Below are positions 7,794-47,853 of a stretch of 64,000 nt of DNA, in pieces. Both the position numbers and the translations under genes were made by a program. Every line of letters starts with the position of its first letter. Positions within the stretch are counted from its first letter, which is position 1. The stretch covers positions 1 to 64,000 of the forward strand of contig MU130617.1 in the NCBI GenBank assembly GCA_015039465.1. Reading direction: 5' to 3'. The notes beneath the pieces were generated by a model, which did not search any database, was not told where the DNA came from, and saw nothing but the letters and a program-made list of their open reading frames with translations. This DNA comes from Phlegmacium glaucopus. Taxonomy: Eukaryota; Basidiomycota; Agaricomycetes; Agaricales; Cortinariaceae.

Positions 7794-9518
7794 CTTTACA
7801 GTCCCCCACATTTTCCGGGCGGACTCCGGGCGGACTGTCACCGGAAAATCTCCGGAAAACACCAAATTTTCACTGGTGAAAATAGATGTTTTTTTCCGGA
7901 GACTGTCCAATGGCAATTCTGCTGTTTGTCCGGTCGGATAATTAGTCCACCGGACAGTACCAACGGACATTCCGGTGGACAATCACCGGAATTGGGCCAA
8001 TGAAGTCCAACAGACAGTCAGTGGACAGCACCGGACTCAACCACTAGTAATATTTAAAAATGTACTAATAGTAGAATTAATATTATTCATTAATATATGG
8101 TTGCAATGTCGTATTGCCATCCAAATCTTGTGTTTTGTTCAGCCCACGAGTTGGTCATGTGACCACATGTGACCCACAACAACAAGCACCATCACCACTG
8201 TTACACAACCACAACAAATAACCCGTAACCACCAACCACCTACCACAACGAAGACAGACAACAACGGACAACAACAACAACAATGAACAACAACAACAAC
8301 AACGATGGGTGACGACAAATGACGACAATGACGACAACGACGACAACGATACTCCCCCCTCACTGGGGGGGGTATTTGGTTTGTTTTTTTTATTTTAAAT
8401 TTCAATTTACTAATTACTACCCTTAGATTACCTCTGCCTTGACACACCGCCATCACCACCCCCCCTTTCACCAGGGGGGGTTTTTTTTAGTGTTTTTTTT
8501 TAGATTTCAAACCACAAACAACCAAATGACGAACGAACGACAAATGATGACGACGTTTGATGAACGAACGACCAAACGACGACAAACGACGAATGAACGA
8601 CCAAACGACGACGAACGACGACAATGTTCGACGAATGAATGACCAAACGACGACGATGATGGCAACCCCCCCTTGCTGGGGGGGTGTTTTTGTTTGATTT
8701 TACGGTACAGCGAGACAAACCCCCCTTACCGGGGGGTTTTTTTTTGTTTCAACAGGCTACAATGACAACAACGACGCCTCGTCGTCGTTGCCTGTTTCAA
8801 CCACCCACCAACACCGTCGTTTCACCCCCACACCCGTTCCAGCCCCCGAGCGCCCGTATCGACCACCCACCCACCCGTTTTGGCCCCGTTTCGACCACCC
8901 AGCCCCCTTTTGGACCACCACCAACCCATATCGACCACCACCTGCCCATATCAACCACCTACACCCACTGCCCACACCGTTTCGACGACCTACCCACCTG
9001 TTTCGGCCACCTTCCACGTTTAGCGCCCGTTTAGCGCCCGTTTCCACACCTACCACTTCATTTTGACACCCCCTCCCCCTAATATCTTTGTTATTCATTA
9101 TAATTTTGTATTTCAAATGTATTAGTGACCTATTCCCCTCACAAGGGATAATTAATTGATTTTAATTTTTATCTTAAGTCTTATTAAAAAAAATTATGAA
9201 AATTCAGTGAATTAGTAGTGATTGAATATGAGTTAGCATGAATTGACTTGGTACTGAGTAAATAAAAATAAGTAAATTGTATATACTAATAGTGATGGAG
9301 ATGATGGTGCAGAAATAATAAACAAATTGTATATACATAAAATCTGCTAAAAGTCCGGTGAAAGTCCGGTGGACATCCACCGGACAGCCACTGGACTTTG
9401 ACCAGACTTTTAGCGGAGTCCGGTGGAATCCAGTGGAGTCCGGTGGACGTCCACCGGACTTTCACCGGACTAGCGGAGTCCGGCCGGAGTCCACCGGACA
9501 ATGTGGGGGAGTGTAAAG
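7794..9518. mobile_element. 1.7-kb TIR DNA element with CCGGACTCC subterminal repeats, no transposase
   Basis: The left end is CTTTACAGTCCCCCACATTT. The reverse complement of the right end is CTTTACACTCCCCCACATTG. About 25 bp of terminal inverted repeat with two mismatches is followed inward by TCCGG. Both subterminal regions (7815-8035 and 9350-9500) are packed with CCGG-flanked GGACTCCGG/GTCCACCGG units in both orientations, typical of transposase-binding arrays. The interior is low-complexity ACAAC/GACGA and CGACCACCC repeats plus four G/C hairpins. No transposase frame was seen, so it looks non-autonomous. No clear target-site duplication was found. Confidence 0.7.
8350..8752. repeat. Four C-run/G-run hairpins each followed by a T tract
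   Basis: At about 8352, 8458, 8666 and 8719 the strand reads six or seven C, a 3-8 nt loop (TCACT, TTTCACCA, TTGCTG, TTACC) and six to eight G, then a T-rich tract. Between them lie GACGA/AACGAC simple repeats. Each looks like a bacterial intrinsic terminator, but they sit inside a fungal DNA element. See findings. Confidence 0.7.
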
Positions 9519-9639: not shown

Positions 9640-11070
9640 ACTGATAGATATTATGCAGTCATTAATGTCTTTGAAGGCTCTAACACCTTTGATTTCTTTG
9701 GCTTAGTCAGTACCTTTGGCAGAGTCAGACCAGTTGCTTGGGTATTGGCTTGAAGTACTTCATTTGGAGGAGCTGGGACTGACAAGCCAGCACTATGATA
9801 ATCAACTCAATGTCAGCAATAGCCATAACAGGGGTTGTTGTTAACATACAGCAGGTCCATCTTTGTAGGGTAGTCATTAGTTAGAACATCTATTTTAAAA
9901 AGGAGTCAGCCAAATGAGGGGCCATTACCGGTGCTTGGTGTTATTGTGTAGTTTGAGCACCTTCCTTGCCCAGTGCTGTACTTGTAGCCTGCTTAAAGAT
10001 AAAAATGGAATTAATGTGAAGCTATAAAGAAATATACTTACTGTTATGTGACTTATTGTCAGCAGTGGATGGAGTTTCAGTCACTTCAAGTGTAGAAGTT
10101 GTGTTGGAGATGGAAGTTGCATTGAGGATAGAAGTTGAGTTCAAGTTGGGGATAGAGGTGCTTCAGGGGTAGATGTTGCATTGAGGATAAGAGGTGCATT
10201 GAGGATAGATGTTGCATTTAAGATAGAAGTTGCTTCAAGGGTAGATATTGTTTTGAGGGTAGAAATAGTACCAGCAGGAGCCCTTGAGTTTGTCCTTGAA
10301 CTCAGAGACACAATCCCTAAAGACAAAGCATATTATACATGCACCCATAAAAATTGAATTAACCAATACTTACTTTTGTGCCTCAAGCTGGTATTTCACA
10401 TGCATATAATCCTCAAATAAACACATATGTGCCTCATTACTAGCTACCATTAGTGCAAAATGAGTTGCTGATCGGAGTATAGCTTGATATCCTGCACAGA
10501 TCCAGATGTACAAGGATAGGCCTAAACAAGGCATATTTTGACACTATGATAAAGGGGGAAAATCTCTAAATACATTATAGCAATTCACCACAACCCTGTT
10601 GTATGTTGTGTTTATTTGATTTTGGACAGCAGAGATCTCATAGTCAGTCAAAGATGCATAGAGTTCATGAGTAAGAGAATTATTGTAATGTTCTATCAAT
10701 GTCTTTTGATTGTTATTTTGCTCATGAGGGTACCTTTGCATTTTGGACAGGGGCAAGGCATCTTTTGAGGATCCATGACAGGAGATGTGGGCTGGTTGAC
10801 TTAGAAGAAAATAGATCCAACTGTTGAACAGGCAAGAGTTGAGTGTTGAGTAGAGTGAAGGACATGCACTGTACAATGATCAGCACAGATTTCAATGAGT
10901 GGTGCTGTAATTCTTGGAAAATCTCATAATTTGCTCTTGTTGTGCTCATAACTGACTTTGACTGCTTGCCCACACAACAGAAATGTTCCAAAAAGGCAAT
11001 GGCAGGCTGAATTTGAATCTGAGGCTCAATTTTAAAAAAGATTAAAATTAAAATTTTTCTATGTATCAAT
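9640..11070 (-). pseudogene. Degenerate coding-like region with an internal minisatellite, unknown family
   Basis: I do not recognise a family. The minus strand has several open stretches, such as 10,876 to 10,544 with a plausible amino-acid composition. A 10,101-10,265 array of 24-27 bp units (TTGCATTGAGGATAGAAG-like) encodes repeated ATSILNA/STLE peptides. The frames do not join into one gene without lesions. It lies upstream of, and parallel to, nothing recognisable, and may be the remains of a repeat-encoded gene. Confidence 0.3.
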
Positions 11071-11150
11071 TTATTTATTTTATTTGTGCCTGCAATTTGA
11101 CTTTATTACCAAATCCAGCTTTTGCATCAAAAGTTGGTTCCAAACAAACA

Positions 11151-11463
11151 CTGCTGTGGTGGGACTATTTTGTAGCTATCCAAAATACAATCCAAATATG
11201 CAAAATTTTATAAATATATTTTGTTTTTCACAAAAAGAAGCTGTAATTTTAGCTTTTGTATAAAATAAAATTAACTTATTTAGAAAGTCATTTTGCAAAT
11301 AATTTTTAAAAAAAACAATAGGATGCTAAAATGTTCAACTTTGGGGCAATTTATACAAAAGCTAAAATTATGGCTTCTTTTTGTGAAAAACAAAATATAT
11401 TTATAAAATTTTACATATTTGGATTGTATTTTGGATAACTACAAAGTAGTCCCACTGCAGCAG
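11151..11463. mobile_element. Foldback MITE with about 110-bp inverted arms
   Basis: The left arm, 11,151-11,262, starts CTGCTGTGGTGGGAC. The right arm, 11,352-11,463, is its reverse complement with few mismatches and ends GTCCCACTGCAGCAG. The loop is about 90 bp and AT-rich. There is no coding capacity and no obvious target duplication. Confidence 0.85.
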
Positions 11464-11689
11464 TGAAAAGTATGGCAGATGGCTGTTCACAGCTTGTGAC
11501 TGGCCTGCGACATATGCTGAGCTGGCACATCACTAGACCCCAATGTCCACAACAACATTACATAATCATAGAAAAAATGAGGAAAGATGTAAGTAAAGAC
11601 ACCAGGCATCTTCAGCAAGTGCCACAAGGCTATGTACTATTACTATTGTCCAACTCCCACCCTAAGACAATTTCCTCCTCTTTCTTAAG

Positions 11690-12735
11690 TTTGTGTAATG
11701 CAAACTGGCATGCCAGTCCAAGTGGGGAAATATTCTGCACATTTATTATATTGTCACCAGAAATATATTTTATCCCCCAAAAACAGTTAAATTTGCACAC
11801 AATTTTATATTATAGTCCCCATAATATTATGAGTCCCCTGAATATATTTTAAGTGTGCCAAAAAAATTTACTTGAGTGCCTGAACATTTATATATCAGCC
11901 CAGAATATTATTATGCTTGCCCATATATTCTTATGTTGACCCCACAAGTATTTCAATGTCCCTGAGGACTTTGTGGCATTCCCCAGAAATTTATTCATTG
12001 CAAAAAAATATTTTCCAACCCCTGAAAACATTTTATCAGTCTGTTACATTCCGTCATATGTTACTCTGGTCCAGCTCCGTCGGAGCTGTCTCCGGTAGTC
12101 CATACTCCGTACAGTGCTTTCCCTTACATCCCGAACTACTCTTCCTATGTTCAACTCCGAGACCTTTCCGTGTCACTCCGGCTCCTCCATCTATACTCCA
12201 AACCCATTACCACTTCTTTGCCACTACCACTATTCTTTGTCATCATCTTTCCCACTATCAGTCAGCATACCTGCTATGGATTATTCACCCAAGAATGCAG
12301 GACCTTTCCAGGAGCAGAATGCAGCACTTATATTTATATTCTATATTTTGGTTGCTATTCCTTTTATTATTTAAGTACTCAAAACTTGTATGTTTTCCTC
12401 AGTTCGAATATCAACTTAGTTTCCCTCTCTTGTTCATCCTCTAAGTTCCTTGCAACTTCCAGTTCCACTCCGTTCCATTCTTATCCTGAAATTAGGACAT
12501 GAAGGTTCTGGGTAGCACAGCACATAAGCTGAGGCTAAGTCCTTATCCTTTCCATAACTCTATTCTGTTACTCCATCTGAAACTCCAGAATAGAGTTCTC
12601 AAACTTAACACAGTCCCCTTAAATTTATTGTGTTTCATGCACAGATTTTTTGGTTCCTTCCTTTTTGGGAATGCCGGTTTGCCTTGATTATGTAAATGAT
12701 CCATTCTTGGCAACTTTGGCACTTTAGGCAGAGTT
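11690..12735. mobile_element. Short dispersed element interrupted by a solo LTR
   Basis: The two outer parts (11,690-12,041 and 12,611-12,735) together match, in inverted orientation, the uninterrupted element at 23,945-24,358. Shared landmarks are GTGGGGAAATATTCTGCACA at one end and GGCACTTTAGGC at the other. The LTR at 12,042-12,610 therefore landed inside a pre-existing repeat. Confidence 0.8.
12042..12610 (+). mobile_element. Solo LTR, 569 bp, with CAGTC target-site duplication
   Basis: Begins TGTTACATTCCGTC and ends CAAACTTAACA, giving TGTTA/TAACA inverted termini. It is flanked by CAGTC at 12,037-12,041 and again at 12,611-12,615. It belongs to the same family as 22,425-22,997 and 3955-4460. 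The related element at about 24,075 preserves the unfilled site. Confidence 0.92.
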
Positions 12736-13059
12736 TAAATATCTTTTGCTATCTGAATTCATCCATCCTGCAGATCCATTATTGTGGCTCTGAGGCTCTT
12801 TGCAAAACTGATAAGGCTTAAACTGACTGTATTATATGGTTTTGTATAAAAGAATGTATTGTAGTTAGAATAACACATGTGGGTGATGTGACTATATAGA
12901 AGGAATGTTTGTCTTTCTGACTCATTCAGTGGTAATCAGGAAATCCAAGGATTTCCTTCATCACCAAAATTCATTGATGAATTGAAGTAGTCCTGGATAG
13001 TGTTAACATAAGGAGGGGTGGATGCATTGACTACTGGTGTAGGCTGCTCATCATTTAGA
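12736..13059. other. No gene seen
   Basis: AT-rich spacer with no coding or repeat signal that I can support. Confidence 0.4.
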
Positions 13060-14275
13060 GTAGGATTGTATCATTTAAACTGTTAATTTAAATGTATAAA
13101 TCAATTTCTTACTAGAAATGCTGCCAGTTGAAATACTGATAATGTCTTCCTCAACCTCATCCTCACTCCTATTCCAGCAAAGTTGTGAAGGTGGTGGTAG
13201 AATACTTGGGAAAGACAATGGACCTGACATCAGGCTAGAAGTCTCACCCTTAGCATCATCAGAGCTCATGTCTTCAACATCAGAGTCTCTCTTTGAAGTA
13301 GAAATCTGTTGAAAAGGGACAATTGGATGCCACTTCTTAAGGATTCAACTGGGAACAGGTTCCTGAGTAACTAAAATAAAAGTAGCAAGTATTGATATAA
13401 AGCATCAAACAAATTAAATAGAAGAGCTTACCAAGTCAAAGAACCTGGTTCTGGACACCTACTTTACTCTTGGCAAGCTTACAGGCAGTCATGATGTCAA
13501 AACCAGTTGGGAGAGACTGGTCATCTGAATAGACAACAAGGGACCTTCATGCATATGGAGGCTTCATACAAATGAGCCAAGAGGAAGTGGTTGCATCATC
13601 TGGTTCAGATTCACATATCCAGTCAAAAAGGTCAGGGAAGAGAATGTGAAGCTTGTTGTCAATGATTGAGTAGGTGTCAGAAGAAAGGAAGTTGCATCAA
13701 GCATAAGACCTAGCTGGGATTTGAAATCATTGTGAGGACCACCATCAAAATTAAAGTCCATCTCAATATGGACAAGATTTCCTTGGAGCCAGGGATGTAA
13801 GTGGTAGTAGGTAAGGAAAGGAGAGTGTGTCATCCATGCCCTCCTATTATCCTTCTTTAAGAAGCATGGTGGGCATTCAAATAAAGTAGATTCTTCATCC
13901 TCCTTGAAATTGAAATCTATACAGTCTGTGCAAATGGAAATAGTCTCACAAGTTGTGCAAAGGACAACTGTTCCACCATTTCTACAACCACTGCACCACT
14001 TGATTATTTATTTAGCACAGTAAATTAGAGAGGAATAACAATCACTTACAGCTCCCACAGGCAACTTGGGGCCTTTGATAGTGTAAACTAAATCACCATC
14101 AGTGTGAGTTGGTCTTGAGGCTTTTTTTGGCTTGACTAGTTTGGTTGAAACAGTCCCAGAACTCCTTTTCAGGCTTGCTTTTGGAGCAGGGGCACCACAA
14201 GTGTTTTTATAGGACCGCTTAATATTAGCAGAGAGAATGTGTGGGGGGAGGAGAGGAAGCCATGAAGAATTAGGA
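13060..14275 (-). pseudogene. Decayed gene encoding a cysteine-cluster (PHD/zinc-finger-like) protein
   Basis: Read on the minus strand, about 14,010 to 13,830 encodes a zinc-binding pattern: WCSGCRNGG, then LCTTCE, SICTDCI and ECPPCF. This is reminiscent of PHD/ADD-type fingers. Upstream (14,230-14,060) a basic Lys/Pro-rich segment ends near a probable splice site. The finger frame stays open to 13,564. Downstream, 13,310-13,080 encodes an acidic Ser/Asp-rich tail. Breaks include an in-frame TGA at about 13,345 and an apparent frameshift just after a candidate ATG near 14,263. The exact family is not recognised. It is probably a relic of a repeat-borne gene. Confidence 0.5.
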
Positions 14276-14854
14276 TAGAAGTGCTTTGTTTTGCTGGAAA
14301 TATAGGATGTGTTTATAGAACAGGTTACAGAGGATGATTAAGTGAGTAGTCAATGAGGCTCTGAGTAGCCAATACCTGGTGTATTGGTGTAAACTCATGA
14401 AGATTCACCTCAATTAGTTAATCTTCTTATATACATCCAGTTATGGCTATGTATCTACCAATGATTTATGCAAATGTCAGATATTCTGTACTAATGATGA
14501 TTTAATGACAATGCAATAATGATGCAATTAGATCAAATATTTCAATATGTTTATCTACTTATCATCTATCTGGCACAACCAATTGTGTGCAATTTTTATT
14601 TCATTTTATACCTCTTTATTTTGTCAATTTCATTGAATAGCCTATAGATGGCCATAGACAACCATCAGCAGTCACAAATTGTCACACATAGACTGTAGTC
14701 ACTTGTTGTGACAGCTGGGCTTTGATAACATATGCTAAGACCATGTGATTACAGTAATCACGTGGGTCTTTGTTTACTTTCCAAACTTAGCATTTTATGG
14801 TTTGTTTTCAATCACTACCATCCTCCCTCAGTGGAATTGTCCCCAGGTCCCCAG
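14276..14854. other. No gene seen
   Basis: AT-rich sequence of unknown origin, with no coding pattern on either strand. Confidence 0.4.
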
Positions 14855-15078
14855 ATGTCCAATGGCAAGTGGTGTGTACTCCTGTGAGGTACACACCATG
14901 CAAGAGCCCTCCTGTGAGGGGTTCTGGCAGTCAGAGGATTGATGGAGCCTTGGGCAGTTCCACCTCCCATCACTCATGTACCCTCAACATCCAATGGCAA
15001 GTGGCCACATGTACTCCTGTGAGGTACACATTATGCAGGAACCCTGTGAGGGGTTCTGGGCAGCCAGAGGACTGATGG
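14855..15078. repeat. Two-copy tandem repeat, unit about 130 bp
   Basis: Two units (about 14,858-14,943 and 14,989-15,072) share ATCCAATGGCAAGTGG, TACTCCTGTGAGGTACACA, CCTGTGAGGGGTTCTGG and the GAGGA-TGATGGAG ending. The GAGGTACACA portion also forms a short palindrome with TGTGTACTCC in the first unit. Confidence 0.75.
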
Positions 15079-15094
15079 AGTTGATATATACATA

Positions 15095-16786
15095 TATATG
15101 ATAAAATAATAAATTGTTACAGTTGCCTGCAAAATGCTAGGCCATTTCAAAAGTTTCTGTGTCCACCCTGGTTTGGTGTAAACATCTGCTTCAGTCTTTT
15201 GTATACTTCAGTACATATTTCATTTATATATATTATTTTCAGCCTTGTAAGCTAGAATCATGTATCAAACTGGGCAGTTGCCCATGAGAAAATATATCAG
15301 GGGGGCAATCTACCCATTGGCAACTTGCCCACTGTTCCACATGGTGCTAGGGTACATAAGACAGTGTGTACTTTTGACATATTTGGATTTTGATGGGATC
15401 AATTTCAAAAGTATGACCTTCTATTTGGCTCAATTTCTATGTTTAGAGTTCAATTATATGATTTTATGGCCTCAAATGCAAACAAATATAAAAATATAGT
15501 CTTGGCAGGCACACAGTATTTATATTTAGCTATCATCCAAGAAAGGCAACTCCAAATAATAGAACTCAAATTTGGACTTAAGTTTGTTTAATATAGCCCT
15601 TTCTCAATAAGGAAAGAAGCTATTAATATATTTTAAATAGATTTAGGGTCCTAAGATATACAATATTTCCTCTTTGGGAAAAATTTCCCATAGGCCAAAT
15701 CTCATTTAGCACTGCATTTAAAAATGTATTTTGCATTTTTCTCAATAAGGAAAGAAGCTATTAATAGAATTTCAACAGATCTCATTTAGCACTGCATTTA
15801 AAAATGTATTTTGTGTTTTTCTCAATAAGAAAAGAAGCTATTAATAGAATTTCAACAGATTCAGGGTCCTAAAAAGATGATCTATCATTCTTACAATTTT
15901 TCCTTTTTTGGAAATATATGTATCTATAGGCAACTTGCCTGACAGGCAGATTGCCCCCCTGATATATATGCCTTGTTACAACTTTGAACAGTTCAGATAA
16001 CTCTGACTGTAAGCAGTGGGGATGAACAATCCTTGATAAGTGTGACACCGGTCACATCAATGTGACACGATGTGACACCGCCCATTTTGTGAGACATTGA
16101 GTTTCTACTTGCTACAACAGTGAACTGTTAAATATTCTACTGTATATACCTCAATAATATCATTTTCCATCGCCCTATAAGAGCCATTTTTTTAATTGTG
16201 CAATATTTGTCCTGAAAATGTGCAGTCACATGCAAACACCAGCCAAATATGAGCCTCCAAAGTGTTTGGGCCATATCTTATGAAGGACTCCATGTATTGG
16301 CTTCATTTTTGGATGCTTTCTGCTTAGAATTTTAATATAAATCGAGCTATAAGAGCGGATTTTTAAAATGTGCCCCCTATCACAAGATAGGTGTGTAAAA
16401 CATGCAGTTTATGTACTTATATGACAAAAAATAAAAATTCTACTCTTATAGGCCTCTTTCTGGGAAAATTTAAAGCAATTTTGGTCTGCAAAACTAGTCC
16501 CAAAGTGCTCTTGTTGCAAAGTTACAGCCTGAGCACTGTTTAGCACCCATATTTGGCAGGCACAGCCACTGATCTCATGCCAAAACGAGCCCATGGAGTC
16601 CATGCAGCTGCTGCATGCACATTCTTACACCTACACCTCCACTACAGAGCTCATAACACCCTATATTTCACCATTTCTACCTAGTTTTTTCTAAGAAACT
16701 GCTAAAACAACCAGGTATGAGTTAAATAAACTCTTTTAAGAATAGATAACTAAATAAAACAATAAAAGCTCCATATTTCAGGTTGT
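15095..16786. other. Source segment of the mis-written copy that follows
   Basis: This 1,692-base stretch is repeated immediately afterwards as its own complement in the same left-to-right order (position n pairs with n+1692). It includes the TIR element above, a GTGACAC-rich tract at 16,040-16,080, and sequence around 16,150-16,700 in which I recognise nothing coding. Confidence 0.95.
15288..15968. mobile_element. TIR element of about 680 bp enclosing a dispersed repeat
   Basis: The left end, TATATCAGGGGGGCAATCTA (about 15,292), and the right end, AGATTGCCCCCCTGATATAT (about 15,943), are inverted copies, and GGCAACTTGCC follows inside on both. The interior contains the inverted relative of the 1425-1770 repeat. 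A GGGCAGTTGCCCATGAGAA motif just left of it (15,268) recurs inverted at about 21,600. Confidence 0.65.
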
Positions 16787-18478
16787 ATATACTATTTTAT
16801 TATTTAACAATGTCAACGGACGTTTTACGATCCGGTAAAGTTTTCAAAGACACAGGTGGGACCAAACCACATTTGTAGACGAAGTCAGAAAACATATGAA
16901 GTCATGTATAAAGTAAATATATATAATAAAAGTCGGAACATTCGATCTTAGTACATAGTTTGACCCGTCAACGGGTACTCTTTTATATAGTCCCCCCGTT
17001 AGATGGGTAACCGTTGAACGGGTGACAAGGTGTACCACGATCCCATGTATTCTGTCACACATGAAAACTGTATAAACCTAAAACTACCCTAGTTAAAGTT
17101 TTCATACTGGAAGATAAACCGAGTTAAAGATACAAATCTCAAGTTAATATACTAAAATACCGGAGTTTACGTTTGTTTATATTTTTATATCAGAACCGTC
17201 CGTGTGTCATAAATATAAATCGATAGTAGGTTCTTTCCGTTGAGGTTTATTATCTTGAGTTTAAACCTGAATTCAAACAAATTATATCGGGAAAGAGTTA
17301 TTCCTTTCTTCGATAATTATATAAAATTTATCTAAATCCCAGGATTCTATATGTTATAAAGGAGAAACCCTTTTTAAAGGGTATCCGGTTTAGAGTAAAT
17401 CGTGACGTAAATTTTTACATAAAACGTAAAAAGAGTTATTCCTTTCTTCGATAATTATCTTAAAGTTGTCTAGAGTAAATCGTGACGTAAATTTTTACAT
17501 AAAACACAAAAAGAGTTATTCTTTTCTTCGATAATTATCTTAAAGTTGTCTAAGTCCCAGGATTTTTCTACTAGATAGTAAGAATGTTAAAAAGGAAAAA
17601 ACCTTTATATACATAGATATCCGTTGAACGGACTGTCCGTCTAACGGGGGGACTATATATACGGAACAATGTTGAAACTTGTCAAGTCTATTGAGACTGA
17701 CATTCGTCACCCCTACTTGTTAGGAACTATTCACACTGTGGCCAGTGTAGTTACACTGTGCTACACTGTGGCGGGTAAAACACTCTGTAACTCAAAGATG
17801 AACGATGTTGTCACTTGACAATTTATAAGATGACATATATGGAGTTATTATAGTAAAAGGTAGCGGGATATTCTCGGTAAAAAAATTAACACGTTATAAA
17901 CAGGACTTTTACACGTCAGTGTACGTTTGTGGTCGGTTTATACTCGGAGGTTTCACAAACCCGGTATAGAATACTTCCTGAGGTACATAACCGAAGTAAA
18001 AACCTACGAAAGACGAATCTTAAAATTATATTTAGCTCGATATTCTCGCCTAAAAATTTTATACGGGGGATAGTGTTCTATCCACACATTTTGTACGTCA
18101 AATACATGAATATACTGTTTTTTATTTTTAAGATGAGAATATCCGGAGAAAGACCCTTTTAAATTTCGTTAAAACCAGACGTTTTGATCAGGGTTTCACG
18201 AGAACAACGTTTCAATGTCGGACTCGTGACAAATCGTGGGTATAAACCGTCCGTGTCGGTGACTAGAGTACGGTTTTGCTCGGGTACCTCAGGTACGTCG
18301 ACGACGTACGTGTAAGAATGTGGATGTGGAGGTGATGTCTCGAGTATTGTGGGATATAAAGTGGTAAAGATGGATCAAAAAAGATTCTTTGACGATTTTG
18401 TTGGTCCATACTCAATTTATTTGAGAAAATTCTTATCTATTGATTTATTTTGTTATTTTCGAGGTATAAAGTCCAACA

Positions 18479-19038
18479 AATAAAACAAATTAATCTTTAT
18501 CACGTATTGATAATTCATATTTAAGAAATATTCGACTATCTAGATAGATTGTTGAAAATTTGGTTAGTCCGGGTAGGGGTTTAGAGAATCGTACGGAGGT
18601 TTATCTTCTTGTGATTGACTCTTAAATCGTTTCCCGTCTCGTTAATTCCGACTTTTAATACACGAAACTGAGGGTGTATCTCTCTAGTCGACGTTCGACT
18701 CTCGTGAAGAATAACCTGAATAGTTCGAGTTGAACGTTAACAAACGTGAGTCTCGAAAAGACCTATTGGAGTTCGAGTTCGAGTCATTATGCGTTAAAAC
18801 GTCTGACGTTCCTCGAGGTCTCTAGTAGGTCTCGTCTAAGTCTTCTATGAACCCGAACGAAAAGTCGGAATTAACGAGACGGGAAACGATTTAAGAGTCA
18901 ATCACAAGGAGATAAACCTCCGTACGATTCTCTAAACCCCTACCCGGACTAACCAAATTTTCAACAATCTATCTAGATAGTCGAATATTTCTTAAATATG
19001 AATTATCAATACGTGATAAAGATTAATTTGTTTTATTT
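18479..19038. repeat. Inverted pair of about 175-bp arms inside the mis-written block
   Basis: Arm 18,479-18,655 is the reverse complement of arm 18,864-19,038; the second ends at the N gap. A reverse-complement relation survives plain complementing, so the foldback is real. After re-orientation each arm holds the upstream region and the first 24 or so codons of the coiled-coil gene family (MPPNR...), making a head-to-head arrangement. Confidence 0.85.
18625..18924. pseudogene. N-terminal fragment of the coiled-coil gene family, legible only right to left
   Basis: Reading the printed strand from 18,924 down to 18,625 without complementing gives a 99-codon open frame. It begins MPPNRGTLTENLAKGRA and contains heptad-like stretches such as RITELELEV and CKQLQVELDKSNKKCSQLA. 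This matches the start and coiled coil of the gene at 28,107 (MPPKGARAQ, SLEVELEKSHEQCSKF). It then runs into the second inverted arm and stops. It is a 5' fragment, not a functional gene. Confidence 0.8.
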
Positions 19039-19583
19039 NNNNNNNNNNNNNNNNNNNNNNNNNNNNNNNNNNNNNNNNNNNNNNNNNNNNNNNNNNNNNN
19101 NNNNNNNNNNNNNNNNNNNNNNNNNNNNNNNNNNNNNNNNNNNNNNNNNNNNNNNNNNNNNNNNNNNNNNNNNNNNNNNNNNNNNNNNNNNNNNNNNNNN
19201 NNNNNNNNNNNNNNNNNNNNNNNNNNNNNNNNNNNNNNNNNNNNNNNNNNNNNNNNNNNNNNNNNNNNNNNNNNNNNNNNNNNNNNNNNNNNNNNNNNNN
19301 NNNNNNNNNNNNNNNNNNNNNNNNNNNNNNNNNNNNNNNNNNNNNNNNNNNNNNNNNNNNNNNNNNNNNNNNNNNNNNNNNNNNNNNNNNNNNNNNNNNN
19401 NNNNNNNNNNNNNNNNNNNNNNNNNNNNNNNNNNNNNNNNNNNNNNNNNNNNNNNNNNNNNNNNNNNNNNNNNNNNNNNNNNNNNNNNNNNNNNNNNNNN
19501 NNNNNNNNNNNNNNNNNNNNNNNNNNNNNNNNNNNNNNNNNNNNNNNNNNNNNNNNNNNNNNNNNNNNNNNNNNNNNNNNNNN
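19039..19583. other. Assembly gap (545 N)
   Basis: A run of N inside the mis-written block. Sequence on both sides is in the same wrong sense, so the gap belonged to one scaffold piece before the error was made. Confidence 0.99.
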
Positions 19584-20616
19584 GAATAAAGAATCTTTAT
19601 TTATATAGAACTTTAAACTCCGGTCTTCAAACTTCATAACCACAATATTGATACTGTAGTGATTTTCATTTGTACTTTTGTTTTTTTATGATGTTTTAGT
19701 AAAACGGTTGATCACTGTTGGGACTTAACCTAAGAACGTTATCCTCATATAATTATAATTATTTTGGACTTCAATATTTCATTTACTCTGTATAATAACT
19801 AATACATGATACGGTCTGGTTTTTTACTACATGAAGACTAACCTTTATATAACACAACCACTGAACTTATTTATAAAAGTAATGTCTATGTCCATGTAAC
19901 ACGGTAAATTGGACATTTTATTACGTTTATTCATTTATATAATGAATTTACAAACGGAACCCTATATCACCAAGTCTTACCAAACTTGGCCAAGTCTTGG
20001 CCAAGAGTCTAAAGACCGGTTAGTTCTTGGTCTTGGTCTTGGTGTACCGACTCCGGTTTGGTCTTGGTCTTGACTTGGTTATGAACCAAACCAAACCAAC
20101 CAAGACCAAGAGACCTGACCAAGTCTTGGCTTGAAGTCGTAGGGATGAAATATACTGACAAATGTGAGTCTCAGTAGACTTGGTAAACTTCAACATTGTT
20201 TGACATAAGAGATCGATCAAGAACTCTTAGATGAACAAATGAGAGTTAGAGAGAGTTTGAGAATTTCTGTTAAGGAACTCTGCTAGAGAACCATAAGAAA
20301 ACTCGAGTGAAACTTGTTGTTTTTGTAGAAATATGTTGACGAATACCCCTACTTGTTAGGAGTCACTGCAGTGCCTGCGCACTGTATCGCACTGTGCCGG
20401 TAAACGCAGTGTTTGTAACTCTGTTGTGTTGACGAGTTCGAGAACTAGTAAAGGGAACCAAAAAAAACATATTATCAGAAGGAAATCGGAACTATGTAGT
20501 ATAATGACAACATGAATCATATATTTGAGTCTTTATTAACGATTTTTACTTGGTCTTACTACGTTCAAGTTATATTATATGTACGAGAGTTTATATTCAC
20601 TATTTACGTTACAGAG

Positions 20617-20775
20617 AGTCAACAGTAGAAGGGTTGGTGAGAGTAGGAGGAGGAGACTTAGTAGTGATGGAAGGAGACATAGACTAAGTTCATCGGTAAA
20701 TGGTAGAAGTATGTTTAGTTAACGTAGTCTATTACGGAAGGCCTACAGTCGTTGGAACCAACCGTCGAACATGTA
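20617..20775. pseudogene. C-terminal fragment of the coiled-coil gene family, legible only right to left
   Basis: Reading the printed strand from 20,775 down to 20,617 gives MYKLPTKVADIRKALSDAI and then an acidic tail ending in SGWEDDN and a TGA. The gene at 25,040 ends with KVAEKREAIKAAI and then an acidic tail with SGWEDE. The match in order and motif shows homology and confirms the wrong sense of the text here. Confidence 0.8.
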
Positions 20776-20845
20776 ATTTTAGAAAATCAAATTTAAAATG
20801 AGAATTTCTTGTCTAATTGGTGATATCCTAACAAAAATCTATTTT

Positions 20846-20960
20846 TAACTGGTTCTTATGGTTCAAACTGGTTCTGGTTCTGGTTATGGTTTTCCTAAGT
20901 GGTTCTGGTTCTGGTTCTGAGAAAATGGGTCCCGAACTGAACTGAACTGAACTTTGGCAT
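20846..20960. repeat. TGGTTC simple repeats in normal orientation
   Basis: Several (TGGTTC)n and (GAACT)n runs followed by GGCATCCCTAAA. A homologous tract lies at about 19,980-20,140 in the mis-written block. The change from CTTGGT to TGGTTC spelling brackets the right edge of that block. Confidence 0.7.
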
Positions 20961-21090
20961 CCCTAAATTATAAAGATGGATTTGTTTGTTCAAAGTGAGC
21001 TCAGAAGAGTACCAAGAGATTGTCTCAAGGAATTGTCTTAAGAGGGAAGGTCTAGGAAGAAAAGTGGATATGATTCTCAAGAACTAGAAT

Positions 21091-21599: not shown

Positions 21600-23085
21600 G
21601 CCTTCTCATGGGCAACTGCCTATTTTGATACATGGTCCTAGCTGCTAGAGGTGTTGGTTCTGGGTGAGATAAGGATGGAGGGTCATCATCAATGACAGCA
21701 ACAATGGCAGAGTCAGAACAATTGAGTGTTTTGCATTCGATGTCCTCTGGCATGTTCACGACACAGAATCAAGCTTGATGATTTGGTTGTCCACACCTAT
21801 AGCACCCCCCTCACAATTCTTTGAATTCCCCCAATCAAAACCTTCATCCTCATCACAACTGCAATTCCTCCCTTTCCACTTCAATTCACCTCCTTTTCCT
21901 CTGGCATATAACACCAAATCACCATACTCTTTCTTCACCACTATTTCCACCACCAATTTGTTTGCCTCATATTGCTGGAGGGCTGAGGTGATTTCGTCAA
22001 TGGTCAGGGATTTCAGCTGAAGCATAAGAGCAGTGCAAACTGGAGCCCAGGATGAATCTAGACCAATGAGGATCTTGTCGCTAACCTCAAGATCGTCAGG
22101 TTTGTGACTGATGGCATTGAGTTTTTGTATGATTGACAATACATTATTGGTGAATTTGGATATGGGAAGGGAGGGGTTGTGAGAGATGGAATAAAATTGT
22201 TGACAGAGACAGATTTGATTTGTGGCACTATCCTTCTGGTATTCAGAGATGACTTTAGCCCTTTCCAGATTTGGTGGTGACAATTGGGGAGTGGTGGTTG
22301 GGATCAACTAGGAACCAGATTGTGGCATATACCTTCTGATCTTGGACCTCCCATTCCAAAGCTTTCTCACCCTGAGGTTTGGTATTAGCCAGGTGCCTCC
22401 CACAACCAATCAGCATGAGGTAAGTGTTAAGTTCGAGAACTCTATTCCGGAGTATCGGACAGAGTTTGACCGGAACGGAACCACAGAACAGGAAAGGACT
22501 ATAGCCTCAGTGTATGTGCTGTGCTACCCTAAACCTTCGTGTCCTAATTTTGGAGTAAGAACGGAATGGAGTGGAACCAGAAGTTGCAGTAACTTAGAGG
22601 AAGACTAGGAGGAGGAAACTATGTTGATATTCGAACTGAGGGAAAACATACAAGTTCGAGTACTTAAATAATAAAAGGAATTGCAACCAAAACATAAAGT
22701 ATAAATATAAAGTGCTGCGTTCTGCTCCTGAAAGGTCCTGCATTCTTGGGGTGAATAATCCATGGCTGGTGTGCTGACTGATAGTGGGAACATGATGACA
22801 AAGAAATAGTGGTAGTGGCGAAGAAGTGGTAATGGGTGCGGAGTATAGACGGAGGGACCGGAATGACACGGAGAAGTCTCAGGGTTGAACGTAGGAGGAG
22901 TAGTTTGGGATGTGAGGGGAAGCACTGTATGGAGTACGGACTACCAGAGACAACTCCGACGGAGCTGGACCAGAGTAACGTATGACGGAATGTAACAGTA
23001 AGTCTCAACCTCCTTTTTCCATTCAAACCAGTTGTTGCCAGTGAGTTCAGGAAGGGAGAGCATAACAGTGTGATCCATGTTGCCA
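21600..23085 (-). pseudogene. Ty1/copia-type Gag remnant split by a solo LTR
   Basis: The minus strand starts at about 23,080 with MDHTVMLSLPELTGNNWFEW, typical of a copia Gag (UBN2-like) N-terminus. It is cut at 23,002 by an LTR and resumes left of 22,420. It then reads through QKDSATNQICLCQQFYSI, LIGLDSSWAPVCTALMLQLK and LTIDEITSALQQYEANK. A CCHC zinc knuckle (CYRCGQPNHQA-x-FC) follows near 21,790 in a shifted frame with an in-frame TGA, and the frame continues to about 21,600. No protease, integrase or reverse transcriptase was seen. It is a dead fragment. Confidence 0.8.
22425..22997 (-). mobile_element. Solo LTR, 573 bp, with GTAAG target-site duplication
   Basis: On the plus strand it runs from TGTTAAGTTCGAG to GGAATGTAACA, flanked by GTAAG at 22,420-22,424 and 22,998-23,002. 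It is close in sequence to the LTR at 12,042-12,610 in the opposite orientation. It sits within the copia gag frame, so it inserted after that element, and its internal region was lost by LTR-LTR recombination. Confidence 0.93.
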
Positions 23086-23263
23086 AGGTAGGGTACTAGA
23101 CAAGTATATATGGATGTGGAGATAGTTCTTGACACAATTTGTTGACAGAAAACATGAAAAATGGTGCAAAAAAGACACAGAGAAGGCCAGAAAAACACAA
23201 AAATGCATGTAAAAGCTCAGAAAACACAGATACATGGACTCAAAGAGATCAGTCACAAGTGGG

Positions 23264-23533
23264 TGTTGGAATTATTTTAGTGCAAGCTGAAATGTGTTAA
23301 AGAATATGAACCTAAGTAGATAGCTAGGAATACTGACCAATAGCGGATACTGCTCATAGATAGTTATCAGCTACCCAGAGTATGTAGTTTGTATAAGTAG
23401 TAGACCGTTGAGGGTGGAATCCCTCATCGGTTTGAACCAATACAAAGTGTATTCCCCCTCCATCTAAGTGACCACCTGTGTTAGCTCCCTAGTTGGCTAT
23501 TTGTACTTCAACCTGATCACCAAAATTTCAACA
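23264..23533 (+). mobile_element. Solo LTR, 270 bp, with GTGGG target-site duplication
   Basis: Starts TGTTGGAATTATTTT and ends AAAATTTCAACA, flanked by GTGGG at 23,259-23,263 and 23,534-23,538. It contains a TATA-like TTTGTATAAGTAGTAGA near 23,390. It is a different family from the 570-bp LTRs. Confidence 0.9.
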
Positions 23534-23702
23534 GTGGGGCCCATAACCTGTTGGAATAAATACCAAGGCAAGGCAGTGGGACAGCAAACAAGTGACGAGC
23601 TATGAATCTGAAGTGAAGTTTTATTGTTGTTTACTGCGGAGTATTAAATAAAATTATGTAATCTATCATCTATGGTAGTGGTGGGACTCATATTTCAACA
23701 TA

Positions 23703-23935
23703 ACAGAACAGCACCAGCAAGTTTGACTTGCTGGTGTGTCATTGCTGTCAAAACAGAGGTCATTAGGTGGTGGTGAGGTGTTGAAATGCCAGAGCAACAA
23801 AACAGCACCAGCAAGTCAAACTCACTGGTGCATCGTTGTCATCGAAACAGAGGTGGCTAGGTGGTTGGTGTTGAAATAGAGCCCAGAGTAGCACCAGCAA
23901 GTCAAACTTGCTGGTGTGTCATTGTCAAAATGGAG
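23703..23935. repeat. Three tandem units each with a GCACCAGCAAG...CTTGCTGGTG palindrome
   Basis: Palindromes at about 23,711, 23,804 and 23,890 (GCACCAGCAAGTCAAACTTG type) are spaced 85-95 bp apart and separated by GTCAAAACAGAGG-type linkers. The middle copy has a decayed right half. They could form cruciforms. No gene is present. Confidence 0.8.
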
Positions 23936-23944
23936 GCTGGTTGG

Positions 23945-24358
23945 GGATATTTAAACTCCGCCTAAAGTGCCGAAGTTGCCAAGAATGGATTATTTATATA
24001 ATCAAGGCAAACCGGCATTCCAAAAAAGGAAAGTCCCAAAAAATTTGCACACAAAACAGAATAAATTTAAGGGACTAACAAAATATTTTCACAGAATGAA
24101 TAAATTTCTGGGGAAGTGCCAAAAAATCCTGGGGGACCAACAAAATATTTGTGAGGTCAACATAAGAATATGTGGGCAAGTGTAATATTATTCCAGGGCA
24201 GTATATAAATGTTCTTGGTACAGTTAAAATATATTCAGGGCATTCATAATGTTGAGGGAAGTATAATATAAAGTTGTGGGCAAATGAAAATGTTTTCAGG
24301 GGATGAAATGTATTTCTGGTGACAATATAATAAATGTGCAGAATATTTCCCCACTTTG
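23945..24358. mobile_element. Uninterrupted copy of the short element found at 11,690
   Basis: Inverted relative of 11,690-12,735 without the LTR. The site that carries the CAGTC-flanked LTR there reads as the unfilled AAGGGACTAAC here (about 24,071). It is about 410 bp with weak GGGGATATTTAA/GGGGAAATATT-type ends. Confidence 0.75.
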
Positions 24359-32753: not shown

Positions 32754-34578
32754 ATGACCGGTGTTTCGTCACAAGCCTCAGCGCCGACTTCAAACCACAG
32801 CAGCGTCGTTCCTTCAGAAGTGGGATGGCAGTTTGTTCCTCAGTACTATACCTTTGTCAACAAAGAACCCCATCGCTTGCATTGCTTCTACAACAAAAAT
32901 TCAACCTTCATACATGGCACTGAAGGCGAGGATGGTAAACCATGTTACGGCCAGCAGGTATGTTCTCTTCTCTTGAAATTCCCAACTCGTACATTCCACG
33001 TGCTACCTACACATCTAACCAAACCATTTATCAGGAAATCCACAACAAGATCACGTCCATCGGGTTTGAAGACTGCAAAGTCTTCATCCACTCTGTAGAT
33101 GCTCAATCTTCTGCAAACGGCGGCATCATCATTCAAGTTATCGGTGAAATGTCAAATCACGGCGATCCTTGGCGTAAATTTGTTCAGACTTTCTTCCTCG
33201 CTGAACAACCCAATGGCTACTTTGTCCTCAATGATATTTTCCGCTTCTTGAAGGAAGAAACACTTGACGGTGATGGCATGGATGATGTTGATCTTCCTGA
33301 ACCTGCTTCCGTTCCTGAGTCTGTTCCTGCAGCTCAAACTGTTGTATCTGCACCAGAACCGACTTATGAACCACCTCGTGAACCTACCCCACCACCTGCT
33401 GTCGTAGAAGATCCAGTACCAGTTGTTATTGCTTCGGTCGTTGCTGATGAAGCACCCACCACCGACATCTCTGAACCCCATATCACTCAAACACCCACAC
33501 CTGCCCCGGAGGACATCTCCCCATCACCACTCGTAGCTACAGCAGCGCAGCCCAACGGTATTCATACCCCAGAGCCTGAGAAGCAAGCTCCTGTTGTCGT
33601 TGCGCCTGTTGAACCTTCTCCTGTCCCTAGCCCAGCTCCTGCTTCAATACACTCTACGCCAGCAACTGCTACCATTCCTGTACCCACTCCTGCCACGGCT
33701 CCGGCTCCGGCTGTCACACATACCCAACCTGCTGCTGCTCCGGCGCTTGCGCCAATACCGGCTGCTCCTTCAGCTCCACGTTCATGGGCTTCCCTCGCGG
33801 CTTCTAATTCAAAGAAGTGGGGTGCAGCCGTGAACCCAGATTCGCGTGGCACAACCGAAATACTATCCATTCCGGCACCAGCTACTAATGGTATACCTGC
33901 ACAGGCCCCTCAATCGGCCGTCGCACCCAACTCTGCTCCTCAACACCATCAGCACCAGCAGCAGAGAGGCGGAGGACAACATGGAGGGCCAGGTGGTGGA
34001 GGAAACCAAGGTGGACCTCGACATGAATATCCAGCATTGCTAGCTGCTCAAAGCGTATCCCACGCCCATTGTTTCGTCAAAGTAAGCTCTCATTCCTTTT
34101 CTTTCCCTTCTTTCTTCTTTAACTCACCCACCCCTTCTCTTACCACCCCTAGGGCATTACAGATCCAATTTCACAACTTCTCCTTCAAACGACTCTCACA
34201 TCCCGTTTCGGTCCCATAAAAGACTTAGAAATCGTCCGTTCCCGAGCATGTGCTTTCATCGAATTCTCATCCGTAGATTCAGCACGAAAAGCTATAGTGG
34301 CAAGTCTACATCAAGGACAAGGGGGTGAAGGTGGTATTTGGGTGGATGTCGGTGGGGATGTTGGACAAGTTAGGATTTCTGTCGAGACCAAGAAGGAGAA
34401 GGCAGACAGACAGGTTGGGAGAGGTAGGGGTGGAGGTGGTGGTGTTGTCGGTAGCGGTGGTGCACAGGGTGCGGGTAATGGGAATGCGGAAAATAGAGGT
34501 GGAGGTGGGGGTGGTAGTTTTAGAGGACGTGGGGGAGGTGGACGCGGTGGACGCGGTGGTGCTTCTGGTCCAAAGTAA
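32754..34578 (+). CDS. G3BP-like protein: NTF2-like domain, disordered linker, RRM, RGG tail
   Basis: Exons are 32,754-32,957, 33,035-34,081 and 34,153-34,578, with GT-AG introns and phase 0 at both junctions. Residues about 18-150 form an NTF2-like domain (VGWQFVPQYYTFVNKEPHRL, FIHGTEGEDG, GEMSNHGDPWRKFVQTFFLA, YFVLNDIFRFL). A roughly 230-residue Pro/Ala/Val-rich linker follows, then SWASLAASNSKKWG. The RRM starts at the third exon (FGPIKDLEIVRSRACAFIEF), and the tail is Gly/Arg-rich (RGGG, GGRGGRGG). This order is that of G3BP/Bre5 proteins, which bind RNA and a ubiquitin protease and assemble stress granules. An in-frame ATG at 32,682 is an alternative start; 32,754 fits the family better. 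Confidence 0.9.
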
Positions 34579-45812: not shown

Positions 45813-47853
45813 CTACTTATTCATCATCCGCTCTAAGACTTGTAATGCCTCCGCCTGTGAGATAGGAGGTATCATGGCCTTGATTTTCCCCGCTCCTTTT
45901 GCTTCGTGGAATATGATTCGTGCTAACACCTCGCCCTATGATGATAGTTGTGTAAGTAACATATTTAAGATGTGGAACTGAAGCAGGACGTACAAGTTCA
46001 ACAAGACAAGCTACAACGATGAGCCTTTGGGTTCAAAACAGAGAAGGATGTGAAAAAGGATCAATGATGAAGGGAAAAATTCCACCTACCAGATAACAAT
46101 CCATGTTATCCGTTCCATAGCAGAATTGTTCAAATGGTCGTGAATCGCTTCCAACTAGAGATTAAATTTATCAGTGATATGTTTTCCGTCTTCAAGGTAT
46201 AATAAGAAAAAAGAAAAAAACTCACAAAATCGCTGGCAACGCCTAATTTTTCATTCAGAACCTGGACACGAGGCGTGATTTCCATGTACTCTCTCACTGC
46301 GTCGTATAGATTCTTTAGGCTTGCTTCACTCCAAAATAGTTCTGGCACGTCCAAGACATTTGAAACGAGGTTGACGTCCAGGCGCAGCTTGAACAAGCGA
46401 CCAGTCAATTTGAGTGCTTCGTTCCGTCGGAGTCGTAGGGCGCCTGACTCCGCTAGCTGTTTGGGTATGGATAATGTGAGTGGAGAGGATAATACCCGTT
46501 GTGCGTTGGTTTCGTAGCGGGCGAGAAGCGTTGATTGAGCAAGAGCGTGGGCAATAGAAAGTTTGAGGAGATGTGACCGAGATTTTAGTGCTATTCAAGA
46601 TCATTAGGGAATATTTCACTCCGGGAAGGCTAGACTTACTGAAAAAGTCGTTGTAAATCCGCGGGTAAGCGATCTGTGGATCATGCTATGGAAAAGCAGG
46701 GGACGTGGAGTTAGCAAAAAATCAGTTGGTGAGTCATAGAAAGACATACAGCAAAATGACATTCTTCAATTTCCCAGTCACCTTCAGCCATTGGGCGTTT
46801 CAGGATTCCTGCGCTAGTAATATCTTCCAGAATATCCTTCTCATGTCGTTCCTCTAATCCAAAGAACACAACTACCCCGAATTCAAAGAAAACGACCTCA
46901 GCAACCACTTCCTCCTTGATTCTCGTTGGTGGAAGGACTTGAATATCATCTGCAGGTTTCCATGTGCCATATGAACCGGGATCTGCTTCTGCTCCGGGCT
47001 CTACGTCTGTTGGGATTGTTGGAAGGCTGTCTGAAACTGACGTGGCTGGTTCCATATACTGTTCAGGCCCCTCGTCAGGCGGAAGATTTGTTGTTGGCAC
47101 TGGTATAGTCTGTGGTGGATGGCGAGAATCTAAGGGTGAGCTCGACGAGATATAACCTTCCCTGAGAGAGGTTGATGATCGTGAAGCTTGTGAAGTGAAA
47201 TATGTGCCCTGGTATCCATTTTCTTCGGCTTCGGAGAGATGTGCTAGGAAGGATTTGCCATTGGTTGTCACAGCAGCTACTGAGGAGCGGATGTTTACGC
47301 CGGGACCATATCCCGGAAGTAATGGAAGATGATACATCTAAGATAATTTTAGCCGGTAGAACGTCATGATATCTTTTTGTGTACTTACAACGTACAGAGC
47401 TTCGTCAAAGACTCTCGGAGATACGTTATGCTCCCGTTTCAGGAAAGACGACAACAACTTCATTTTGAAAGACTCTGCAACACAATAGGCTGTTATCCTC
47501 TTGAAACCTGCGTTTTTGCGTTGATCTTTTGTCATCCGCTCCGCCTGGCTTTTATACTCTCGTACACCTCCGTCGGTTTCGTGCCCAAGAGTCAAATCAT
47601 CATCAACGTCGGTTGAAAAAGGTTTAGTTTGAGGCGCGGAGGGCAGAACAACAAGTTTATGAGTGGTTTTTGAACTGCGTTGTGTTTTTGGTCCAGTTGT
47701 AAGGCCCGCCTTTGAAGCGCGAAGCGACATAGATGCGGGTGGTGCATGTCTGTCAGCTATACCAAGTTGCGCAAGTCGCGATGTAGGTTTTCGTCTACCA
47801 GGCAGAGAGGTTGTGGCCTGGAAACGACTAGTGGGATTTGATTTTAGTGACAT
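45813..47853 (-). CDS. RMD1/RMND1-like (DUF155) membrane-anchored protein
   Basis: ATG at 47,853 (MSLKSNPTSRFQATTSLPGR), with a basic, Ser-rich N-terminus of about 100 residues. The DUF155 core runs through KNAGFKRITAYCVAESFKMK, EVVAEVVFFEFGVVVFFGLE and ERHEKDILED, then HALAQSTLLARYE, SLTLSIPKQLAESG, LFKLRLDVNLVSNVLDVPEL and FWSEASLKNLYDAVREYMEI. A single C-terminal transmembrane helix (WIVIWLIVVACLVELGEV) spans two introns. It ends ALQVLERMMNK. Members include yeast Rmd1 and Rmd8, fission-yeast Sad1-interacting factors and mitochondrial RMND1. The variable-length Pro/Ser-rich insert argues for the Rmd1/Sif group. Molecular role in fungi is poorly defined. Confidence 0.88.

Follow-up and report, generated by a model that had tools for sequence, protein, structure and literature searches.

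The parallel complement at 15,095–18,478 of the analysed DNA is almost certainly an assembly error, in which both edges of a 545-N gap carry sequence printed backwards without being complemented, likely through mishandling of strand during gap filling. It is an artefact of the record, not biology. Compared with other copies of the same repeats, 16,787–19,038 and 19,584 to approximately 20,770 run backwards, and each becomes continuous with its flank when reversed. The window (the whole stretch of DNA analysed, 64,000 nucleotides) is the start of contig C219 in the 60.5-Mb, 259-contig genome of Phlegmacium glaucopus, an Agaricales mushroom that we take to be the same species as Cortinarius glaucopus.

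The parallel complement and its composition

When 15,095–16,786 was compared with 16,787–18,478 at an offset of 1,692, 1,691 of the 1,692 positions were Watson–Crick complementary in the same left-to-right order, with no indel. The earlier note had claimed, from about ten spot checks, that position n pairs with n+1692 with neither indel nor mismatch; the pairing and the lack of indels stand, but there is a single mismatch, G at 16,370 facing T at 18,062. At any other offset the longest exact parallel-complement match in the whole window was 35 bases, and the six longest of the 103 such matches, which are those listed, fall in a tandem repeat of 80 bases within these two segments. The pairing at offset 1,692 is far beyond chance.

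The backwards state does not end at 18,478, where the earlier description stopped. It reaches approximately 20,770, spanning the only N run of the window, and it recurs elsewhere in the assembly, which that description likewise lacked. The region can be divided as follows.

15,095–16,786, plus strand: contig end, correctly printed, with its last ~770 bases (from ~16,017) in a repeated element; recognized by copies elsewhere and by CpG depletion like that of the flank
16,787–19,038, no strand assigned: left gap patch, reversed and not complemented in place; recognized by the CpG/GpC swap and by its reverse, which meets 16,786 as in other copies
16,787–18,656, no strand assigned: fold-back copy within the left patch, seen as arms after reversal; its source is the 1,870 bases starting at 15,095
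18,660–19,038, no strand assigned: 379 bases of the left patch by which the repeated element genuinely extends into the gap; recognized by five other copies
19,039–19,583, no strand assigned: residual gap, a run of 545 N
19,584–20,770, no strand assigned: right gap patch, backwards in place, its right edge located to within a few bases (20,768–20,771); recognized by genome copies
20,771–20,965, plus strand: right flank, correctly printed, in the repeated element that also forms the end of the right patch; recognized by genome copies

Observed/expected ratios of CpG and GpC were 0.09 and 0.99 in the left flank (10,000–15,094) and 0.14 and 1.45 in the contig end (15,095–16,786). Within the block the bias was inverted, with CpG raised and GpC lowered: 1.45 and 0.14 at 16,787–18,478, 1.92 and 0.05 at 18,479–19,038, and 0.79 and 0.36 at 19,584–20,600. 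Such a swap is expected alike from sequence that has only been complemented and from sequence that has only been reversed. A two-state composition model placed the block at 16,625–20,776; copies elsewhere put its right edge at 20,768–20,771. The patched gap is also flanked by diverged inverted repeats at 12,006–12,743 and 22,424–24,315, which lie approximately 10 kb apart and are 84–93% complementary in several pieces.

Reversal of the left patch and its fold-back

The repeat at the contig end has ten copies elsewhere in the genome, with 95–100% identity over most of query positions 920–1,692, and in ten near-identical copies genome-wide no match to the deposited order runs more than 16 bases beyond the left join. 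We aligned three orders of the region to seven repeat copies (L002–L008): the deposited order, the repair proposed in the earlier note, and the patch reversed in place. In the deposited order alignments stopped 16 bases past the left join in six copies and one base before it in the remaining copy (L007). Reversing the patch in place allowed five of the seven copies to align as one run of 1,149–1,152 bases with one to three gap openings, the lone gap in L002 being a single T at the join. The runs were shorter in L007, at 1,092 bases (with a deletion of approximately 29 bases), and in L005, where an N run cut the alignment to 886 bases. The proposed repair, complementing the block and dropping the 1,692-base overlap, did not restore the genomic order, as all seven copies aligned in two pieces on opposite strands. 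Because the order of the repeat is restored by reversal and not by complement, the base order of the patch is reversed, not merely complemented. The broader suggestion of the earlier note holds: strand was mishandled in assembly, where one of reversal and complement was applied and the other was not. The extension at 18,660–19,038 matches five other copies over its full length at 97.6–100% identity, and its order is right only once it is reversed.

Read in reverse, the left patch runs onward in the repeat for 379 bases (plus 3) and then enters the reverse complement of the 1,870 bases starting at 15,095, that is, of the 1,692 contig-end bases and 178 bases of the left patch itself. After reversal the arms of this fold-back are 1,871 bases long and 99.84% identical, with a spacer of approximately 200 bases. 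The parallel complement described in the earlier note is the 16,787–18,478 portion of the fold-back at 16,787–18,656. By this geometry, a reverse complement that is reversed would turn into a plain complement, with the patch's far end landing beside the contig end to give the exact tandem. The parallel complement would then arise because the backwards patch holds a fold-back copy of its own flank, with no contig overlap involved.

All six readable copies of the repeat continue instead into another sequence, in which they are 95–100% alike among themselves, so the return is special to the left patch. Fold-back artefacts (inverted chimeras) occur in amplification and in hairpin-adapter reads, and the patch resembles them in having a forward run, a short spacer and the reverse complement of the same stretch. 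It differs from them in being also printed backwards, which makes it look like a parallel complement, and in missing the reverse copy of the 200-base spacer. A read with a missed hairpin adapter was rejected as the sole cause of the fold-back: its two passes should meet at one turning point, yet the reverse pass starts approximately 200 bases before the turn, and the reverse complement of the 200 bases preceding the turn (18,660–18,859) is absent. With this reverse copy lacking, an inverted chimera of some other form or a genuine rearrangement may underlie the fold-back; we infer that a chimeric long read would be its origin.

Natural fold-back duplications can have such a shape of arms and spacer, and the long, almost identical arms around a short spacer would suit a real inverted duplication in the genome, of which only the backwards printing is an error. 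We regard this as unlikely, since every readable copy of the repeat in which the fold-back starts goes on differently, and since the inverted arm lies entirely within a patch bounded by the residual gap.

The right join and the turning of the gap edges

The right side of the gap behaved in the same way. The reverse of 19,584–20,776 gave 498 first-look candidates in the genome (40 scored), versus 19 for the deposited form (all scored, the window itself included). When the reverse was placed before the right flank, all 40 candidates scored, out of 446, aligned across the join, and nine further rows were short pieces; the edge in this construct was set at 20,776, approximately six bases too far to the right, and the alignments cross it with small gaps. 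When this 917-base span was searched in its deposited form (40 of 394 candidates scored), only the window itself crossed the join and none of the 41 other rows did so, nearly all of them beginning at query 585–589 or later, which is the block edge. Copies of the right flank mostly begin at query 585–589 (20,768–20,772) and finish at or near 782 (20,965). Twelve copies appear in both lists, and these run through the join with the patch reversed but end there in the deposited order. A copy of the right join was sought among the fetched loci described below and none was found there. Inspection of four joins for a regular one-base duplication gave an extra base at three and none at the fourth, which is no firm signature.

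These results bear on the cause put forward in the earlier note, namely that two overlapping contigs, one of them complemented without reversal, both stayed in the assembly since their overlap went unrecognized. This would explain why the tandem is exact at offset 1,692, and the complemented 16,787–19,038 does match repeat copies piecewise at 97–100%. However, those pieces lie on opposite strands in each of the seven copies, and the overlap account fails at 19,584–20,776, which meets its flank by reversal and not by complement. Gap edges in three other contigs (C44, C62 and C213) likewise need reversal. An overlap of contigs is consequently very improbable as the explanation.

Reversing each patch alone matched its outer join to genomic copies, on the left in seven copies and on the right in the 40 scored. 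As each join is restored by its own reversal, the two gap edges were turned round separately. Turning the whole of 16,787–20,770 as one unit, gap included, would also leave both sides of the gap backwards, but it would not make each edge continuous with its own flank when reversed alone, as is seen, and we consider it scarcely credible. The preferred reading, backwards printing of each gap edge, could be accounted for by a patching step in which the reversal (or the complement) was dropped for minus-strand patches. A minus-strand patch that was complemented but not reversed would give the backwards text that is observed.

Spread, possible source and hidden coding sequence

As deposited, 16,787–19,038 has 36 genome matches besides itself and its two inner arms, and 19,584–20,776 has 29 besides itself; some in each set are short, and they were not individually checked. 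First-look candidates for backwards versus normal queries (31 versus 431 on the left side, with queries of differing length, and 19 versus 498 for the right patch) suggest that some percent of the repeat copies are backwards. Around left-patch matches we fetched 20 stretches of 9.9 kb, chosen for matching and not at random. The composition model called backwards blocks in all 20. In 11 of them the block reaches an N run, as judged by the model or by backwards homology, and the other nine contain no N within their 9.9 kb and could represent closed gaps. In the window itself the N run at 19,039–19,583 lies between the two blocks. The switch from normal to backwards in C44, C62 and C213 occurs inside the same repeat at three different points; in each, the block at the gap edge runs on from its flank once it is turned round and not before, and turning it in place brings the repeat back into order.

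It is vanishingly improbable that the sequence is real and stems from some biological process copying DNA in parallel orientation: the pattern does occur at many places in the assembly, but we know of no chemistry for such copying, and the backwards blocks reach N runs at more than half of the fetched loci, begin at different points of one repeat and in one case hide domains that are readable only when reversed.

To compare the sense of homology with the composition label, 28 sequences were matched with one another, and matches of 150 bases or more were kept. Homologies in the same sense joined regions with like labels in 394 of 421 classified pairs (27 disagree and 7 more are unclassified). 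Backwards homologies joined regions with unlike labels in 277 of 304 classified pairs (27 disagree and 10 more are unclassified). Homology sense and composition label agree across the 28 sequences.

The composition model, for which the window supplied all the training data, should not be trusted unaided. Its call of another backwards block, at 8,198–9,053, was rejected because the deposited form has copies over all 1,001 query bases at 82–94% identity on five other contigs; this is a CpG-rich tandem-repeat stretch with many normal copies as deposited, which the model mistook. Also rejected was L037 974–2,130, where the model overran a gap and the sequence reads normally, with RVT_1 and RNase H domains as deposited. 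Composition alone is thus misleading, and blocks with swapped CpG and GpC need to be confirmed by homology.

A related element, approximately 83–85% identical, forms near palindromes with arms of approximately 510–590 bases and a spacer of approximately 110 bases.

L032 4,319–5,556 (C128): near-palindromic related element, backwards
C10 164,303–165,529: near-palindromic related element
C81 127,016–128,212: near-palindromic related element

Reverse-strand database entries, which are usually whole entries given as the reverse complement, similarly reflect a slip of strand handling in a deposited record. In contrast, the pieces described here lie inside scaffolds and are reversed without being complemented. 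Phrase searches of the literature, which had limited coverage, found no report of the same fault.

Long-read patching is the likely source of the backwards pieces, while the tool is unproven. A methods sentence in PMC7550596, a paper that mentions Cortinarius glaucopus, describes hybrid assemblies generally as generated with ALLPATHS-LG and patched with PBJelly, and PBJelly would have been used on this genome if it was one of the hybrids. PMC8480192 lists the species as the ectomycorrhizal Cortinarius glaucopus among genomes assembled with Velvet, AllPathsLG or Falcon with finisherSC. In the pertinent passages of the PBJelly paper (English et al. 2012; PMC3504050), extensions from the two flanks are retained even where they fail to meet, with the gap shortened, resembling the present case, in which both gap edges are extended around a reduced residual gap. 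The same passages report that approximately 1% of reads keep unremoved hairpin adapters, giving two subreads on opposite strands, and that PBJelly detects and splits such reads, which counts against a simple adapter account of the fold-back. The parts of PMC3504050 consulted differ from our case in that they describe no backwards-printed patches.

Backwards DNA escapes ordinary homology search and looks like orphan sequence without counterparts. Hidden by it in this genome are parts of repeats and the domain-coding stretches of a likely NACHT/WD40-type gene, and repeat counts and dinucleotide statistics would be distorted. It is conceivable, though somewhat short of probable, that one strand-handling fault in the genome centre's pipeline wrote long-read patches backwards throughout the genome and that other assemblies from the same pipeline share it, with genes hidden. 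Should other hybrid assemblies share the fault, many records would need correction. The diagnosis is cheap, requiring only that an assembly be queried with its own repeats reversed and uncomplemented, or be scanned for blocks with swapped CpG and GpC. The value of the finding lies in this diagnosis, applicable to other assemblies, and in the warning it gives about the present one.

The hidden coding sequence was found in a model-called backwards block of C164.

L039 4,624–9,601 (C164, ~412.7–417.7 kb): 5-kb model-called backwards block that yields NPHP3_N (NACHT-like) and WD40 domains when reversed; no N within its 9.9 kb

Pfam was run on eight of the twelve longest printed reversed frames, leaving out three repetitive frames of L045 and one 174-residue frame of L034. 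Three of the eight carry domains, all from L039, with NPHP3_N and WD40 above the Pfam cut-off and NACHT below it (21.9 versus 26.7); no Pfam domain was found in the other five. Among eight frames read as deposited, two carry Pfam domains, both from L037 974–2,130, and the single L039 frame tested in this form had none. By eye, WD40-like repeats carry on in the right flank of the L039 block, on the strand that the reversed block uses, after approximately 1.8 kb of other sequence. The domains of the reversed block and the repeats of the flank would belong to one gene, which to judge from its predicted domains is likely of NACHT/WD40 type.

Bacterial gene, RNA and tRNA readings of the window gave nothing relevant, the window being eukaryotic. 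Elsewhere in the window, a frame with an NTF2 domain at 32,942–34,219 on the plus strand predicts a G3BP-like protein and is 100% identical over 82% of its length to a protein listed under Phlegmacium glaucopus, and a DUF155 (RMND1/Sif2-Sif3) fragment just above the Pfam cut-off lies at 46,711–47,337 on the minus strand.
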